30,602 nt of DNA from a virus. Under the pieces are notes generated by a model. The model was not told the DNA's origin, did not search any database, and worked only from the letters and a program-made list of their open reading frames with translations. The translations under genes and the position numbers were made by a program. The number at the start of each line of letters is the position of its first letter. The first letter of the stretch is position 1. Where the stretch lies: positions 1-30,602 of IMG/VR virus record IMGVR_UViG_3300035180_001073; one strand, 5' to 3'. This document shows, piece after piece, positions 2,999 to 28,050 of this stretch.

Positions 2999-3724
2999 TT
3001 AATAACTTTTTCCGGTATTATATCGTTCCTTTCTTTTGTGTCTTCCATTACCCGTATTTAGTGATTTATACGTTGGTGTTAAGGAATGGCAGTTAGGACA
3101 CAATAATTTTAAATTACTCAATTCGTGATTTGTTGAATTCCCGTCAATATGCTCTAATTCAATAGATATATTCCCAGTTACTGGATGCACTTTATCCCAC
3201 CCACATTCCATACATTTGTTTCCATACTTATGAATTAAGTATTTTTTATACCGTTTATGATAAAGAGTTGTGTTGCCACTCTCAACCTCTTCAAATCTTT
3301 TCTTAGCTCTATAATCGTTTGCACATTTTTGCGAACAATATATTAATCCAGTACTTTTCTTAGTCTCCAAACAATTCGCACATTGTATTGTTCCGTATTT
3401 CGGCGGTCTTATCCGTTTTTTACCTCCAAGAATAAGAATATCCTTTTTAACTTTTAATTTATTATTAAAAGTTGCACTACATGAACTGGAACAAAACTTA
3501 CGACTATGTGTCTTTAAATCGATTATTAATTTATCGCACCCCAAACAATTTACTTTATCGTAGAAAATCTCCTCGGCAAAATCAGATGATTTTAATTTTA
3601 AAGTATTTAATTTAAGTTTTACCGATTTGGAACTTCTCCCAGTGATAGTTCCAATTTTTTCATATGTATTCCCAGCTTTTAAAAGCTTTATACAATTTTC
3701 AATTTCTTCTTTTGACCATTTCAT
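2999..3724 (-). CDS. HNH homing endonuclease with N-terminal helix-turn-helix
   Basis: About 241 aa from ATG 3724 (an ATG at 3742 would add only a Met/Ile leader). The N-terminus MKWSKEEIENCIKLLKAG is a SANT/HTH-like DNA-binding segment. It is followed by two Cys-rich knuckles (CLGC...CSSSC; CANC...CSQKC) and a C-terminal HNH nuclease (CMECGW, ELEHIDGNSTNHELSNLKLL, CPNCHS). Such proteins cut one or both strands at a target and promote their own spread. It sits between tRNA-Thr(CGU) and tRNA-Thr(UGU), a typical location for this element in this genome. Confidence 0.85.
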   Translation of the reverse strand: MKWSKEEIENCIKLLKAGNTYEKIGTITGRSSKSVKLKLNTLKLKSSDFAEEIFYDKVNCLGCDKLIIDLKTHSRKFCSSSCSATFNNKLKVKKDILILGGKKRIRPPKYGTIQCANCLETKKSTGLIYCSQKCANDYRAKKRFEEVESGNTTLYHKRYKKYLIHKYGNKCMECGWDKVHPVTGNISIELEHIDGNSTNHELSNLKLLCPNCHSLTPTYKSLNTGNGRHKRKERYNTGKSY

Positions 3725-3782
3725 AATGATAATTATAATCATTATTTATGAATAAGTCAATAGCGTGATTCGAAAATTTTAG

Positions 3783-5502: not shown

Positions 5503-5880
5503 CTAAACTCGTTTATTTTTCCACCTTTCTTTGCGATAAATTTTATATTCGGCTTTACAAATGTCGCATCTACAATTTTGGTTAATGTAACCCGATAAAT
5601 TGTGTTTCCAACCCTCTCTACCGAAAATCAAATCACCATTTTCAATGCTCTTTTTAAGATGGCAAGAATAACATAATAATTGACATTTTTTAAGCTCAGC
5701 TAAAAACACTGATAATTTAGTTGTCAACATTGATGAAATCTCATTCACCTTATCCTCTGGTGTTATGTGGTCAAATTGTAATGTCTCCGTTGCTGGGCAT
5801 TTACAACATTTTCCACCTAACAGCTCTATTGCCATTACTCGTCGCTTATCTCTGTAAGCTTTAATGTATTCCTTTGTCAT
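5503..5880 (-). CDS. HNH endonuclease (125 aa)
   Basis: CxxC pair in GGKCCKC, the HNH core LQFDHITPEDK, then CQLLCYSCHLKKS, and a C-terminal second Cys cluster (CRCDICKAEYK). This is the compact phage HNH type without an N-terminal HTH. It has its own TAACTTTG promoter box (5885-5892), only 4 bp before ATG 5880, and lies next to tRNA-Tyr. Likely a free-standing homing endonuclease. Confidence 0.8.
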   Translation of the reverse strand: MTKEYIKAYRDKRRVMAIELLGGKCCKCPATETLQFDHITPEDKVNEISSMLTTKLSVFLAELKKCQLLCYSCHLKKSIENGDLIFGREGWKHNLSGYINQNCRCDICKAEYKIYRKERWKNKRV

Positions 5881-8844: not shown

Positions 8845-9459
8845 CTAATTATTTTCATTGTAAGACCAGATGTATCCTTTATAGTTTTTTTTTCTTCCTT
8901 TACAACAAGCACAAATATTGCCGGTATGATAATTTAAAATTCGGTGAATTTCAGAAACAGAAATCCAGATTTTAATTACTTCACCCTCTAATGTTTTTTG
9001 TACTATTTCTCTTCTGTATTTTTCCTTACCAATCTTAGTAGATTTAGCAATATTATCCTTGTGTTGTTGAGTTAACTTTTTCCCAAGTTTAGATTTTGTT
9101 TGATTATCGACTGTACTTTTAGGTAAAGATTTACCCTTTAATTTCTTTCTGATTTTTTCTTTGGTCTCTTCACTCACAACTCGACCCTTTGAGTTTCCAG
9201 CTATAGGGCAAATGTTAATTGTAGGTTTTAAAATGTCAATATAAAATTGTTCTCGTTCTAACAAATTAGCCCCGTCAACAACTTCCAATATTTTAAAAAC
9301 TATTTCACTATGTTTTTGATATAACCTTCTCATCTTATAGTTACAGTGTCTACCACCATTTAAGTCGCTTAAATGTTTTTTAAACCTCTTTTCAAACGTC
9401 CCTGTTGTAGACCCAACGTATAATTCATCCCCGATATTTATTGAATAAATTCCAGCCAT
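8845..9459 (-). CDS. GIY-YIG homing endonuclease with NUMOD domains
   Basis: 204 aa. GIY-YIG core at the N-terminus (MAGIYSINIGDELYVGSTTG, then FEKRFKKHL, and Glu in LLEREQFYIDILKP). It is followed by NUMOD3-like repeats (SEETKEKIRKKLKGK; TQQHKDNIAKSTKIGKEKYR) and a C-terminal NUMOD1-like DNA-binding part (SVSEIHRILNYHTGNICACC). Typical SegA-like free-standing endonuclease. ATATTTAT (9464-9471) precedes ATG 9459 by a few bases. It sits beside the deleted repeat copy. Confidence 0.88.
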   Translation of the reverse strand: MAGIYSINIGDELYVGSTTGTFEKRFKKHLSDLNGGRHCNYKMRRLYQKHSEIVFKILEVVDGANLLEREQFYIDILKPTINICPIAGNSKGRVVSEETKEKIRKKLKGKSLPKSTVDNQTKSKLGKKLTQQHKDNIAKSTKIGKEKYRREIVQKTLEGEVIKIWISVSEIHRILNYHTGNICACCKGRKKNYKGYIWSYNENN

Positions 9460-9534: not shown

Positions 9535-9802
9535 TTATCTTGGTATAGCGCCGTGCGTTTCCATGCAGTTAACTGCAATACCGGCAATTTTACGCATAAC
9601 TTTTAGGGCTTCAGTATCACCAGCATTGAGTGTCCAAGCTTCATCCAGCTTGTTGATGTAGTGATGTAACATTACGGTGAATTCACCAACTGTACGAACT
9701 CTGCCGTCAGTTCTGTCGGATGAGAGAGAGAGAGTCTTGATATTCACGTTCGCCATCGATTACGTGGTAGACTTCATCACGACTTGTAGTTGCGTTTAAC
9801 AT
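9535..9802 (-). pseudogene. Conserved phage protein frameshifted in a TC repeat
   Basis: ATG 9802 reads MLNATTSRDEVYHVIDGERE, then YQDSLSL, and then goes out of frame. A second frame, open from ATG 9756, carries the rest (SDRTDGRVRTVGEFTVML, then VMRKIAGIAVNCMETHGAIP) to 9535. Together they match one conserved phage protein (xxVIDGERxYQD ... MRKIAxxAVxCMExHGAPxR). The frames meet in a (TC)6 tract at 9722-9734; adding one TC restores a single frame. A TAACTTTG box (9847-9854) lies upstream. Confidence 0.7.
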
Positions 9803-9846: not shown

Positions 9847-9854
9847 CAAAGTTA
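9847..9854 (-). promoter_or_regulatory. Bacteroidetes-type -7 box
   Basis: Minus-strand TAACTTTG upstream of the frameshifted gene starting at 9802. Confidence 0.4.
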
Positions 9855-9931
9855 GTTTATTTTTTGAAGTCGCAGCCATACCTTTCTTTCAGGCAGGTCC
9901 CCTTCCGTCTTCACTAACAAATTGACTTACG

Positions 9932-10004
9932 TGGTGCCGGGTGGGGTTGAACCACCGACACATGGATTTTCAGTCCATTGCTCTACCAACTGAGCTACAG
10001 CACC
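9932..10004 (-). tRNA. tRNA-Phe(GAA), copy 1
   Basis: Acceptor GGTGCTG/CGGCACC, D arm GCTC/GAGC, anticodon stem ATGGA/TCCAT with loop CTGAAAA (anticodon GAA), T arm GGTGG/CCACC with loop TTCAACC, discriminator A. Confidence 0.93.
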
Positions 10005-10886: not shown

Positions 10887-11147
10887 TTAAAGAAATTTAA
10901 TTACTGGCTTCAACGTCTCTTTATAATACGGAACCTCAACCGTCATCTTTCCATCATTCCTCTCAAGATACAATATGTACCTATCCTTGAATTCGAATAC
11001 TGGGTGGCCAATCTCAGCTGGCTTGAACCCAACGATTCCCTGAGGCGAAGAAAGAGACCCAACCATTACTGGTAAGGACTCCTTATCCGCTACAGATATC
11101 ATTTCTATAATCTGATTAACGATTGATATTTTCTGTTCATCCTTCAT
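10887..11147 (-). CDS. Hypothetical protein (86 aa)
   Basis: Begins MKDEQKISIVNQIIEMISVA; ends in a YYKETLKPVIKFL segment. No family recognised. Its start overlaps the end of the RNA-ligase-like gene by 11 bp, so the two are probably co-translated. Confidence 0.65.
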   Translation of the reverse strand: MKDEQKISIVNQIIEMISVADKESLPVMVGSLSSPQGIVGFKPAEIGHPVFEFKDRYILYLERNDGKMTVEVPYYKETLKPVIKFL

Positions 11148-11871
11148 TTAGTCCAGCTTGTTTTAATTCCAGTGCGTAAAGTTCTGGACTCTTGGTTCTA
11201 AGTCTTTGAAACCAATCATCCGTCTTTATCTTGCAATAGTATAGGTGATTATTACCTTTCTTGCTTTGCGTAACACCCTTGCATATGAGTCCTTCTGTTA
11301 ACCCAAACTCATTTGCCTTCACCCGCTGCACCAATTCCTTGTTAAGGTTGCCGGTGTAAACGATGCGTGGTATACCTGTATGTCCAAAGTCGTTGATAAA
11401 CTCCTTCGGCACTATCAGGCCATGCTTGTGTTCTGAGATGTCAAACAGAACAATGTCAAATTTATCATTGAGGAAGTCATGCTGACCGAATGATGATTTC
11501 TCACCAATAAGCTCAGCAAAGCAAACGAATGCTTGAGAGTTCCTGTAATCCTTTGACTTGAAGACCTTGGTTAAAGCGTCTTCGTATTTGTCCCTGAAAA
11601 GATTTACTGCAAAGCCAAACTGTTCATGCTTGTCATCAACATCAATTGAAATATCGAATGGGTCGTCTTTGAAAAAGTAAGTTGTAAATTCAACCTCTTT
11701 CTTCTCTTTCGTTTCTGGATTATAGGTATTTCTGAAACATCCTTCTCTTATTTCCCATATGGGAAGTTCAAACATAACTACACTGACCCTTGTGGATTTG
11801 ATTATCCACATGGTTCCCAGATTTGGGTCTGGTATCCGGCCTTTGGCCACCAAGTAGTCTGTTTTGTTCAT
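11137..11871 (-). CDS. RNA-ligase-like nucleotidyltransferase
   Basis: 244 aa from ATG 11871. The order of segments FVCFAELIGEKSSFG (motif III-like), NDKFDIVLFDIS (IIIa-like), LTEGLICKGV (motif IV, EGxxxK) and YYCKIKTDDWFQ (motif V, KxK) fits the phage RNA-ligase / covalent nucleotidyltransferase fold. The adenylated lysine in a KxxG context (motif I) is not obvious, so activity is uncertain. A repair ligase for cleaved tRNAs would fit a tRNA-rich region, but that is inference. A TATATTTG box (11876-11883) ends 4 bp before the ATG. Confidence 0.6.
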   Translation of the reverse strand: MNKTDYLVAKGRIPDPNLGTMWIIKSTRVSVVMFELPIWEIREGCFRNTYNPETKEKKEVEFTTYFFKDDPFDISIDVDDKHEQFGFAVNLFRDKYEDALTKVFKSKDYRNSQAFVCFAELIGEKSSFGQHDFLNDKFDIVLFDISEHKHGLIVPKEFINDFGHTGIPRIVYTGNLNKELVQRVKANEFGLTEGLICKGVTQSKKGNNHLYYCKIKTDDWFQRLRTKSPELYALELKQAGLNEG

Positions 11872-13108: not shown

Positions 13109-13336
13109 TTATTTTTTCTTCTTGTCCAGCTCTCTCATTATTTCCCATTGCTTCAAATTTGAATCAACAGTTTCTTTATCACTGGGACAACTCATAACAA
13201 AATTTCTTTTCAAGTACGCTTCCAATTTCAATAACTTGTTAACGTCATTGTCACAAAGACCAAACAAAAATTTTGTTTGATTCGTACTTCTGTTGTTCAC
13301 CCATGCAAGAGTCTCTAACATTTCATTTGTTTCCAT
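13109..13336 (-). CDS. Hypothetical protein (75 aa)
   Basis: METNEMLETLAWVNNRSTNQ with a basic C-terminal KKKK tail; helical. Start at ATG 13336 overlaps the end of the HNH gene by 14 bp; an ATG at 13348 would lengthen the overlap. No family recognised. Confidence 0.55.
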   Translation of the reverse strand: METNEMLETLAWVNNRSTNQTKFLFGLCDNDVNKLLKLEAYLKRNFVMSCPSDKETVDSNLKQWEIMRELDKKKK

Positions 13337-13826
13337 ATTTTTCTCCAAATTTATTGATGTATGCTAATAATTTTTCATCTGTGTAACCGCTATGTTCTTC
13401 ATGATGACAGTTAGAACAAATCAAAACACATTTGTCAAGTTCCTTCTGTATTACTGTCCAACTTTTGTTACCTTGATTGGAGATAGAAAAATCTTTTTGC
13501 TCAGGGTCAAGATGATGAAATTCTAATGCGCTTAAACTCTTTTCATATTTGCAACGGATACAACAACCACCAAGATATTCAACCGCTCTTTTCTTTGTTC
13601 TGTAACGTCTAACTCTTGTCATGCAGCTATTGCAGATAGAGCTATTCTTTACATTTTCACCAAGGTCCTTTTCACAAATCTTACATTCAAAATTTTTAAG
13701 TTTGAATCTGTATAATCCGTGTTTGTTCAGTATCTTAGGAACCGTTGTTCGGTGTACATTTATAAGCTTTGCAATTTTTGAATTGTTTAAGCCAGCTTCT
13801 AAGTATTGTATTAATTGTGCTTTCAT
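13323..13826 (-). CDS. HNH endonuclease with N-terminal HTH
   Basis: About 167 aa from ATG 13826. N-terminal HTH (NNSKIAKLINVHRTTVPKIL), two zinc knuckles (CKIC...CNSC), then the nuclease: CCIRCKY, SALEFHHLDPEQKDFSI, and CSNCHHEEH. The layout (HTH, Zn ribbon, HNH with FHHLDP) is the same as in the gene at 20432. Likely a mobile free-standing endonuclease next to the tRNA cluster. Confidence 0.83.
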   Translation of the reverse strand: MKAQLIQYLEAGLNNSKIAKLINVHRTTVPKILNKHGLYRFKLKNFECKICEKDLGENVKNSSICNSCMTRVRRYRTKKRAVEYLGGCCIRCKYEKSLSALEFHHLDPEQKDFSISNQGNKSWTVIQKELDKCVLICSNCHHEEHSGYTDEKLLAYINKFGEKYGNK

Positions 13827-13896
13827 ACTATATAAGTATGCAGCAAAAATCAAAACGACACATAGATTTCAAAGAACGACTCACCAAGTGAGTTTG

Positions 13897-14246: not shown

Positions 14247-14696
14247 TTATCTTGAATTGCCCTTGCAATGCGTGTCTAAAGTTGCGTTGCAATTAGGACA
14301 AACAATTCGTAAATTCTCAATTCGATTATCTTTATTATTACCGTTTATATGGTCTAAAATTAAGCTCATTCTCTTCCCCATCCATTCTTCACCTTGAGGA
14401 CAGAGTTCGCATTGACGAATTTTTAAACCGGCTTTATAAAGCTTCTCTTTCAATTTTGCTGTATTCGTATAAGTTGACTTTTCAACCAGAATTTCAGACA
14501 GTTCAATTTTAGTTACTTTTCTATTATATGCGTAATTTCCAAAATGAGTGATACTTAAGTCATATTTCTCAATATATCGCTTAATTGTCTGTCTATTACC
14601 ATAGTTACGTACATTTAACCCGACCTTTCGTACCACATTAGAATAACTATTCGATTCTTTTACAACCTGTTCTAAAACATTCTTTTCGTATCTCAT
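14247..14696 (-). CDS. HNH endonuclease (149 aa)
   Basis: N-terminal HTH-like region (MRYEKNVLEQVVKESNSYSN), a CxxC (RQCELCPQGEEWMGKRM), the HNH core SLILDHINGNNKDNRIENLR, then IVCPNCNATLDTH. Same type as the remnant at 19814 (WMGKE...EHINGDNTDNRLENL). It ends 10 bp from the 5' end of the class II GUC tRNA. Confidence 0.85.
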   Translation of the reverse strand: MRYEKNVLEQVVKESNSYSNVVRKVGLNVRNYGNRQTIKRYIEKYDLSITHFGNYAYNRKVTKIELSEILVEKSTYTNTAKLKEKLYKAGLKIRQCELCPQGEEWMGKRMSLILDHINGNNKDNRIENLRIVCPNCNATLDTHCKGNSR

Positions 14697-17505: not shown

Positions 17506-18147
17506 TTATTTTTTTCGTCCTCTTACCCAGCCAGTTTCTAAATAATTAGAAATTTCAGTAAGTTTTATTTTTTGGTCTTGCCCATCTTTTGTTACCCAGC
17601 AAGTTCCGAATTGTGAATTTTCAACACCAATTCCTTTATTTTTATTCGCAAAACTCATTAACTTTTTTGATTCATCGGTATGCGTTTTATTTAGAAATGT
17701 TTTGAAATTATGATTACCTGATGTTATGTGATTGATACGAATTGCTTTCAAACGCTCTTTATATTCCGCTCTGAAAACCAAATCTGTCTTAACCTTATTA
17801 AGATAAGCTTTAACACCGGCTGCGGAACATTTCTTCATATGTTCTGCGCTAATAAACCCGCCAGTTCCACCACTCATCAAATTCATACAAAGTTCATGAG
17901 ATAAATGTTGCTCAGTGATTAATTCTCGCTCCCTTACAACTAATTCTGCTCTACTTTGGCAATATTCCAATATCTCTTTGGAATGGTTATTTTTACCATA
18001 CTTTCTAATTGACCTTCTTAACCTTTTCCCGCTACCCAGATAACCGTCATCTATATTGGATGTTGAGTGCATTCCGATGTAATATCGGTTTGTAACAGTA
18101 CATGTGGTCTTGTAGATGTAGTGAATGTTGTGTTGTTTCCTTGGCAT
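17506..18147 (-). CDS. GIY-YIG homing endonuclease
   Basis: 213 aa. HYIYKTTCTVTNRYYIGMHS is the GIY-YIG start, followed by GYLGSGKRLRRSIRKYGKNN and a catalytic-type Glu in ELITEQ. A NUMOD3-like segment (HTDESKKLMSFANKNKG) and a C-terminal SQFGTCWVTKDGQ...KIKLTEI module follow. This is the SegB-like type found free-standing in T4-like phages. ATATTTAT (18162-18169) lies just upstream of the ATG. Confidence 0.88.
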   Translation of the reverse strand: MPRKQHNIHYIYKTTCTVTNRYYIGMHSTSNIDDGYLGSGKRLRRSIRKYGKNNHSKEILEYCQSRAELVVRERELITEQHLSHELCMNLMSGGTGGFISAEHMKKCSAAGVKAYLNKVKTDLVFRAEYKERLKAIRINHITSGNHNFKTFLNKTHTDESKKLMSFANKNKGIGVENSQFGTCWVTKDGQDQKIKLTEISNYLETGWVRGRKK

Positions 18148-20431: not shown

Positions 20432-20953
20432 TTACCAGCCCTCTATCCCTGCATGTCGTACACGATGACAATTAGAACAAAGTAATACGCACTTATCCAA
20501 CTCTTCTTTAATTTTTTCCCAGCTCTGATATTTGATTCTCTCAAAATTCTCATCCTTGGTGGTCGGGTCCAGATGGTGAAAATCAAAGACTGCGTAATGA
20601 GTATCTTCCAACTTCAACTCACAATCCAGACATTCACCACCTTTGTAGTCAATCATTTTAAGTTTGACATTCTTAACCCTTTCCGTATGATATTGATTAC
20701 TACAATTTTTACAATAACCGCCGTAATCTTCTCTGTTGTATCTCTTATAAAAATCACCAAGTGGTTTAATGGTCTCACACTTCGGACAATATTTTTCAAC
20801 ATCATCTTTTTTGTTATACAGCTTCTTGATTGTTGCCAATTCAAGTTTCTTCAACCAGTACTTGATGTTCCCTTGAGACGTTTTAAGTTCGTTGGCCAGC
20901 TCTCGCTGCGATAGACCTTTTTTAATAAGTAATTCCAGTGTTTCTCGTTCCAT
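20432..20953 (-). CDS. HNH endonuclease with HTH and zinc ribbon
   Basis: 173 aa. HTH (SQRELANELKTSQGNIKYWL), zinc ribbon (CPKCETIKPL...CKNC), then GGECLDCELKL, FDFHHLDPTTKDENF and CVLLCSNCHRVRHAG. The promoter region directly upstream contains ATATTTAT (20968-20975) and lies next to a tRNA half whose anticodon loop it interrupts. Confidence 0.87.
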   Translation of the reverse strand: MERETLELLIKKGLSQRELANELKTSQGNIKYWLKKLELATIKKLYNKKDDVEKYCPKCETIKPLGDFYKRYNREDYGGYCKNCSNQYHTERVKNVKLKMIDYKGGECLDCELKLEDTHYAVFDFHHLDPTTKDENFERIKYQSWEKIKEELDKCVLLCSNCHRVRHAGIEGW

Positions 20954-21866: not shown

Positions 21867-22316
21867 TTATTTAACGTGTTCATACCACCAACCTAATTGT
21901 TTTGATGTTCGTATTCTATGATGATTAGCACATAGAACATCACACTTCTCAATTTCTTTTAGTATGCTATCCCAGTTATGATGATAAATCATTTGTGAGA
22001 TATTCAAAATTTTATCTTCTTGCTCTCTGTGGTCAAAATCTAAAACAATTGGATTTGATTCGTCGCAGACAATACAGTGATGCGTCTTAAAATATTCTAA
22101 TAGGTTCATACGATTCTCAGTCGTCTTAATTATTTTCCTATCGGTACTTCTCTTAACATACTCATCACGATACTTTTTATAGTGACCTTGTGGGTCTCTA
22201 TTATCCTTATAACATTCTTTACACTGCGAATGAAATTGATTTTTTAATTTCATTCGTATAAAAAAATCAGTTACATTTTTAACCTTACCGCATTTGCTAC
22301 ATTTTTTTGTTTCCAT
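21867..22316 (-). CDS. HNH endonuclease with N-terminal zinc ribbon
   Basis: About 149 aa. METKKCSKCGKVKNVTDFFI...CKEC is a zinc ribbon; LEYFKTHHCIVCDESNPIVL, DFDHREQEDKILNI and CDVLCANHHRIRTSKQLGWW form the HNH nuclease. Start at ATG 22316, 4 bp after the ATATTTAT motif (22321-22328); the longer upstream frame is hydrophobic and includes the motif. It sits between tRNA-Cys halves. Confidence 0.83.
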   Translation of the reverse strand: METKKCSKCGKVKNVTDFFIRMKLKNQFHSQCKECYKDNRDPQGHYKKYRDEYVKRSTDRKIIKTTENRMNLLEYFKTHHCIVCDESNPIVLDFDHREQEDKILNISQMIYHHNWDSILKEIEKCDVLCANHHRIRTSKQLGWWYEHVK

Positions 22317-22372
22317 GATAATAAATATCATCATGAACTGCAAAAAACGAATAAAGTTTTGCAATTATTAAG

Positions 22373-23904: not shown

Positions 23905-23945
23905 ACCAATAAATATTGACAAATCCAAGCTTTTTCATTAAATTA

Positions 23946-24275
23946 ATGAAAATCATGAAAAAAGGGTACGTATATCTTTTGCTTGAAGTTAACCAGCACG
24001 GTGAGGAATACCACAAGATAGGGATTTCCATAAATCACCCTGAATTGAGGGTTAAACAGCTCCAGACGGGGAATCCTAACCTTATACGTGTCCTGTCCTT
24101 CTATGAATCGGTTAATTTCAAAAAGGTGGAGCGCTTGATGCATGCGAGATATCTCCGAACCTTGGCCGAGAATGAGTGGTTTAATCTGACCGATGAAGAA
24201 GTACTCAATTTCATTCCTACATGCAAAAAGGTTGACGAAACCGTCAACCTTCTAAAGGATAATCCTTTCTTTTAA
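23946..24275 (+). CDS. T5orf172 / GIY-YIG-like protein
   Basis: The only plus-strand gene here. About 109 aa from ATG 23946. GYVYLLLEVNQHGEEYHKIG, ELRVKQLQTGNPNLIRVLSF and NEWFNLTDEEV match the T5orf172 (MUG113) domain, a GIY-YIG-related nuclease-like fold found in many phages. It converges with the S24-like gene (4-bp overlap). Divergent from the gene at 23350, so it probably has its own expression signal in 23905-23945. Confidence 0.83.
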   Translation: MKIMKKGYVYLLLEVNQHGEEYHKIGISINHPELRVKQLQTGNPNLIRVLSFYESVNFKKVERLMHARYLRTLAENEWFNLTDEEVLNFIPTCKKVDETVNLLKDNPFF

Positions 24276-27378: not shown

Positions 27379-28050
27379 TTACGCCCGTCTAAACTTTGGA
27401 AGCCAATCACGTAAAAATACGTTAGATGGGCCACCAACCTTCTCCACCCAGTGGTCGTATTGCCTCTGGTTATCCTCATCAGAACCAAATTCATTACGTA
27501 CAAAGTCTGGATAAGTTTCACGGTCAAATACCCTTTCGTCCACCAGAAAAACAACAGCTGTAAGCGCATCATTCAAATCAGGCTCAAAGAAAGGAGCATG
27601 GCGAATGTTGTTTTCACTCAATTCCAACATCTTCTTGTTCAGAGTACCCAGACGTTCTGGGTTGTTGTTGGTCGTGCCGCCGTCAAGGATAATGAATGTC
27701 TTGTCAACATTCGCAAACTTGTCGTAAGGAATTTCATGCTTTGAAAGCACCTTTGACCACTGGCCATATTCAACAACAGCATGGCCGAATTGAATACCCT
27801 GTTGGATTGGCTTGATGTTGTACGGAACAAAACCGTACATGCGGTAGATAAGATAACGAGGCGTTTTCCTTGGTGTTGAATTGGGCTTCATTTCGCAAAG
27901 TCTTGCTCTGGCAATGAAATCCGAATAAGGTATCTTTTCCTCAAAGAAAGCTTCTTCTGGGTCAGCCTTTGATGTTTCCCAATCCAATAGCTTGATTGGG
28001 CGTGTTCTTTCGAGTACGCACCAATCGTAAGCTGTTTTTAATAATTCCAT
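27379..28050 (-). CDS. PTH2-like protein (aminoacyl-tRNA hydrolase fold)
   Basis: 223 aa. YNIKPIQQGIQFGHAVVEYG places His in the GxQxxHA context of type 2 peptidyl-tRNA hydrolases and DUF2000. KTFIILDGGTTNNN resembles the xxDAGxT strand-loop and TAVVFLVDERVF the last strand. The first ~75 and last ~40 residues are extra. Catalytic activity is inferred from these motifs only. Confidence 0.5.
   Translation of the reverse strand: MELLKTAYDWCVLERTRPIKLLDWETSKADPEEAFFEEKIPYSDFIARARLCEMKPNSTPRKTPRYLIYRMYGFVPYNIKPIQQGIQFGHAVVEYGQWSKVLSKHEIPYDKFANVDKTFIILDGGTTNNNPERLGTLNKKMLELSENNIRHAPFFEPDLNDALTAVVFLVDERVFDRETYPDFVRNEFGSDEDNQRQYDHWVEKVGGPSNVFLRDWLPKFRRA

Follow-up and report, generated by a model that had tools for sequence, protein, structure and literature searches.

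Intragenic dinucleotide tracts that set the reading frame are a feature of the phase-variable contingency loci of Campylobacter and Neisseria. In a survey of Campylobacter, the shortest dinucleotide tract accepted had six units, and the authors pointed out that their cut-offs take in tracts mutating at less than 1e-5, which is too rare to switch well (PMC6321876). A survey of Neisseria used a cut-off of at least eight units, and its dinucleotide tracts showed no length change (PMC5953494). Overlapping frames are also known from phage Mu, in which -2 programmed frameshifting takes place (PMC5009743). Slipped-strand indels in simple sequence repeats, finally, leave a short tandem tract out of frame in a gene that is otherwise intact and has intact orthologues.

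Here, we analyzed a small split gene in the IMG/VR virus record IMGVR_UViG_3300035180_001073 (positions 1 to 30,602; this whole stretch of 30,602 nucleotides is referred to as the window). The gene has in common with contingency loci that an intragenic dinucleotide tract sets the frame, but the repeat number is at the minimum, the tract is not conserved, there are no known length variants, and we saw nothing to suggest a role at the surface or in restriction-modification. It shares two overlapping frames and a possible -2 slip site with the phage Mu system; however, the split is not conserved, stimulators are missing, and the small protein is unrelated. The out-of-frame tract, the otherwise intact gene and the intact orthologues agree with simple-sequence-repeat frameshifts, although the tract is short and known from one genome.

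Two frames meet at a rare TC tract

The gene lies on the minus strand and is broken at the short tandem tract (TC)6 (TCTCTCTCTCTC, positions 9722-9733). Its N-terminal part, frame A (9707-9802), comprises 31 codons from the ATG at 9802 to the TGA at 9709-9707 and is translated as MLNATTSRDEVYHVIDGEREYQDSLSLIRQN, including the conserved helix VYxxIDGEREYQD. The C-terminal part, frame B (9735-9535), contains the conserved region TVGEF...RKIAGIAVNCMETHG..R and ends as SSDRTDGRVRTVGEFTVMLHHYINKLDEAWTLNAGDTEALKVMRKIAGIAVNCMETHGAIPR at the stop at 9535. An in-frame ATG at 9756 turns frame B into a 73-amino acid ORF, which is listed as ORF 9535-9756. Neither half contains additional stops. No other (TC)6 occurs in the window, where 0.01 were expected according to dinucleotide-preserving shuffles, and the tract is also the only dinucleotide tract of at least four units. 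No dinucleotide tract of at least six units was present in 265 kb of other viral loci, some of which overlap.

The frame is open upstream of the ATG at 9802 (TNFERTGESLYAQLKQYP), and we considered an extension of the gene in this direction. The extension has no counterpart in relatives; homology begins at about residue 21 of the query, just inside the proposed start, so that 9802 is most likely the start of the gene. About 45 bases upstream of this ATG, a tentative Bacteroidota-type -7 promoter-like box, TAACTTTG, is found on the minus strand (9847-9854). No TTTG element matched at the usual distance from this box. Boxes of the type TAnnTTTG also arise by chance, with 30 on the minus and 20 on the plus strand.

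Relatives encode both halves in one open frame

Protein scans identified 21 related loci, namely 20 in IMG/VR, including two pairs with identical proteins, and one in the 595-kb phage LR756511.1. The contigs of the genome collection contained no relatives of the protein, and the family is absent from Pfam and PHROGs. In 21 of 21 loci, both halves lie within a single open frame. A profile built from the distinct relatives scored 38.8 bits with frame A alone, 86.0 bits with frame B alone and 131.1 bits with the read-through protein. The initial annotation had described the two frames as halves of one conserved phage protein joined at (TC)6, and the single-frame loci together with the profile matches to both pieces bear this out. 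The converse situation, separate genes in all relatives, was not encountered, since every relative has one gene. None of the 21 relatives, whose identity to the protein of the window reaches about 60% at most, carries a TC tract at the position of the junction.

Both sides of the tract retain the residues that are invariant across the family, for example D, E, R, Y, and Q of DGEREYQ and R, K, V, E, and R of RKIAGIAVNCMETHGAIPR. In a tree of the family, the terminal branch of the window's read-through protein measures 0.48 and is similar to or shorter than those of intact relatives. Because the invariant residues are kept, the branch is not lengthened, and there are no extra stops, the break would be either recent or artefactual, or else the protein would still be made despite it. 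Retention of the residues would be equally expected if recoding or an in-frame subpopulation still provided the protein.

Loop length and the ancestral tract

The relatives also bear on the length of the tract before the break. Five residues separate YQ from [DNT]R (YQ-x5-[DNT]R) in all 12 loci that have this motif (10 distinct proteins; one locus, L009, was assessed by eye). With seven units in the tract, the protein would have seven residues at this place, i.e., a loop that is two residues longer than that of the relatives. With a shorter tract, the loop of the window would read SLSSDR, and the nearest loop among the relatives is SLSADR in L014. According to the initial annotation, one additional TC unit restores the full-length protein. 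The arithmetic of this statement is right, but the loop length of the relatives implies an ancestral tract of fewer than six units. As the loop of the relatives is two residues shorter than that of the seven-unit product, an expansion by two units from a shorter tract is the likelier history, as judged from relatives with no more than about 60% identity. As a whole, the loop differs in length by a few residues among the relatives, which suggests that it would probably tolerate small in-frame changes.

Predicted structure

The AlphaFold model of the closest relative (mean pLDDT 79) consists of three helices comprising residues 3-19, 32-52, and 57-77. The junction maps to the loop joining the first and second helices, which is modelled with low confidence. 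In fold comparisons, PRA-PH 1y6x (Z 6.9, 78 residues, 4.0 Å) and MazG 1vmg (Z 5.5) were matched, both with scores that small helical models can reach by chance. The predicted helical fold weakly resembles all-alpha NTP pyrophosphatases (MazG/phosphoribosyl-ATP pyrophosphatase), but the family has no sequence match to these enzymes and no Pfam match, and an active-site motif is not established. An uncharacterised LCIVAC01 protein was the best viral Foldseek match (E 8e-5, 40% identity). Overall, the fold search did not assign a confident function to the protein.

Genomic context

Promoters of the type TTTG-N17-21-TAnnTTTG are characteristic of Bacteroidota. Seven such promoter-like sites are located on the coding (minus) strand of the window and none on the plus strand, and a Shine-Dalgarno-like motif precedes 4 of 49 ORFs. 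Owing to the few Shine-Dalgarno motifs and the strand-biased promoter-like sites, the phage looks adapted to Bacteroidota, which are probably its hosts.

The split gene is flanked by a tRNA-Phe gene (9931-10004) and a GIY-YIG endonuclease gene (8845-9459). The minus strand between 2558 and 22598 carries 26 tRNA genes according to ARAGORN, with repeated isoacceptors for Phe (three), Glu (three), Gln (three), Leu (four), and Cys (two); three further Rfam tRNA matches are located at 2924, 4344, and 19974. About nine HNH, GIY-YIG or T5orf172-type endonuclease-like genes are interspersed among the tRNAs (2999-3742, 5503-5880, 8845-9459, 13323-13853, 14247-14696, 17506-18147, 20432-20953, 21867-22364, and 23916-24275). 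Several of them are paralogues of each other, and the T5orf172 gene is on the opposite strand.

The last ~167 residues of an RNA-ligase-like protein (11137-11871, minus strand) are 62-63% identical to the ligases of L038 and L039, while its first ~77 residues have no match in these ligases and no KLDG nucleotidyl-transfer motif. The gene possibly encodes a degenerate or re-purposed ligase. As the similarity is confined to the C-terminal part, we considered a second frameshift in this neighbouring gene; the N-terminus is one open frame that starts just after a good promoter-like site, and it looks replaced or divergent rather than frameshifted. The product of 27379-28050 (minus strand) matches the PHROG "hydrolase" family phrog_3668 and could represent a peptidyl-tRNA hydrolase, an enzyme that would suit the many tRNA genes of the region. 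At the left end (4-320), imperfect tandem repeats of 21, 42, and 63 bases encode the Ala/Arg/Asp-rich tail of a gene running off the window.

Explanations for the frame break

We consider a recent replication-slippage frameshift, affecting the gene for a small phage protein in one genome, to be the probable explanation. A loss of this kind was among the readings put forward initially, and it is favored by the orthologues, which are intact everywhere, by the retention of all invariant residues and by the terminal branch, which is not lengthened. A short TC run present by chance in the loop that connects helices 1 and 2 would have been expanded by slippage during replication, and the indel would have shifted the second half of the gene out of frame. 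Translation from the ATG at 9802 would then stop a few codons past the tract and yield a stub of 31 residues without helices 2 and 3. We infer slippage as the cause, an ancestral tract that was shorter and gained two units, and a loss of the protein product. It is rather unlikely, though still a chance to be reckoned with, that the true genome has an in-frame tract and makes the protein, the break being an error of assembly or sequencing. The source is a 30.6-kb viral contig, low-complexity tracts are commonly error-prone, and the rest of the gene is intact, all of which would fit such an error. However, a tract of 12 bases is short relative to ordinary reads, and in the larger genes, some of which were compared with relatives, we noticed no further clear frameshift at a homopolymer or repeat.

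Phase variation, in which the tract would change its length at high frequency and toggle the gene between on and off states across the phage population, would be suggested by a dinucleotide tract within a coding frame, and six units correspond to the lower cut-off for Campylobacter (PMC6321876). We nevertheless regard it as improbable, as this number is at the bottom of the published cut-offs and below that for Neisseria of at least eight (PMC5953494), the 21 relatives lack the tract, and the small helical protein encoded here shows no signs of a surface or tail protein. Flank-pattern scans of the viral contigs of IMG/VR and of the genome collection revealed neither a second allele with another tract length nor a sibling in these collections, which may omit the nearest records. 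Even less likely is a -2 ribosomal frameshift or transcript slippage on UCUCUCUC through which the six-unit allele would yield the full-length protein. The geometry of the tract would allow it, since a -2 slip on a UC tract of period two re-pairs both tRNAs perfectly, and there is the precedent of phage Mu (PMC5009743). Yet the frame is unsplit in the relatives, the downstream RNA structure is not significant compared with shuffles (z = -1.24), the stop lies several codons past the tract, and there is no known need for two products. In addition, no Shine-Dalgarno-like stimulator precedes the tract, in a phage that hardly uses such sites. Thus, neither phase variation nor a programmed frameshift, both of which had been proposed initially, is backed by these data. 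That the locus comprises two distinct genes, or a protein made in two pieces, with a start of frame B at the ATG at 9756, is highly implausible: this in-frame ATG does open the 73-amino acid ORF, but it sits within the region of frame A coding for conserved helix 1, the first residues of frame B from there (MANVNIKT) are unmatched by the family profile, and none of the relatives is split.

Taken broadly, we think there is only a small chance that a Bacteroidota phage controls a small intracellular protein through the tract, either as a contingency switch, with ON and OFF genomes in an infecting population, or as a -2 recoding site. The switch is put forward as a hypothesis, with the tract itself as the one positive piece of evidence. 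If it were true, as mixtures of tract lengths in reads would indicate, it would amount to an unusual case of repeat-driven on/off switching of a phage gene. A slippage frameshift, in contrast, is a routine event and serves mainly as a caution for annotation: the 73-amino acid ORF at 9535-9756 is half of a conserved protein whose family Pfam and PHROGs do not contain.
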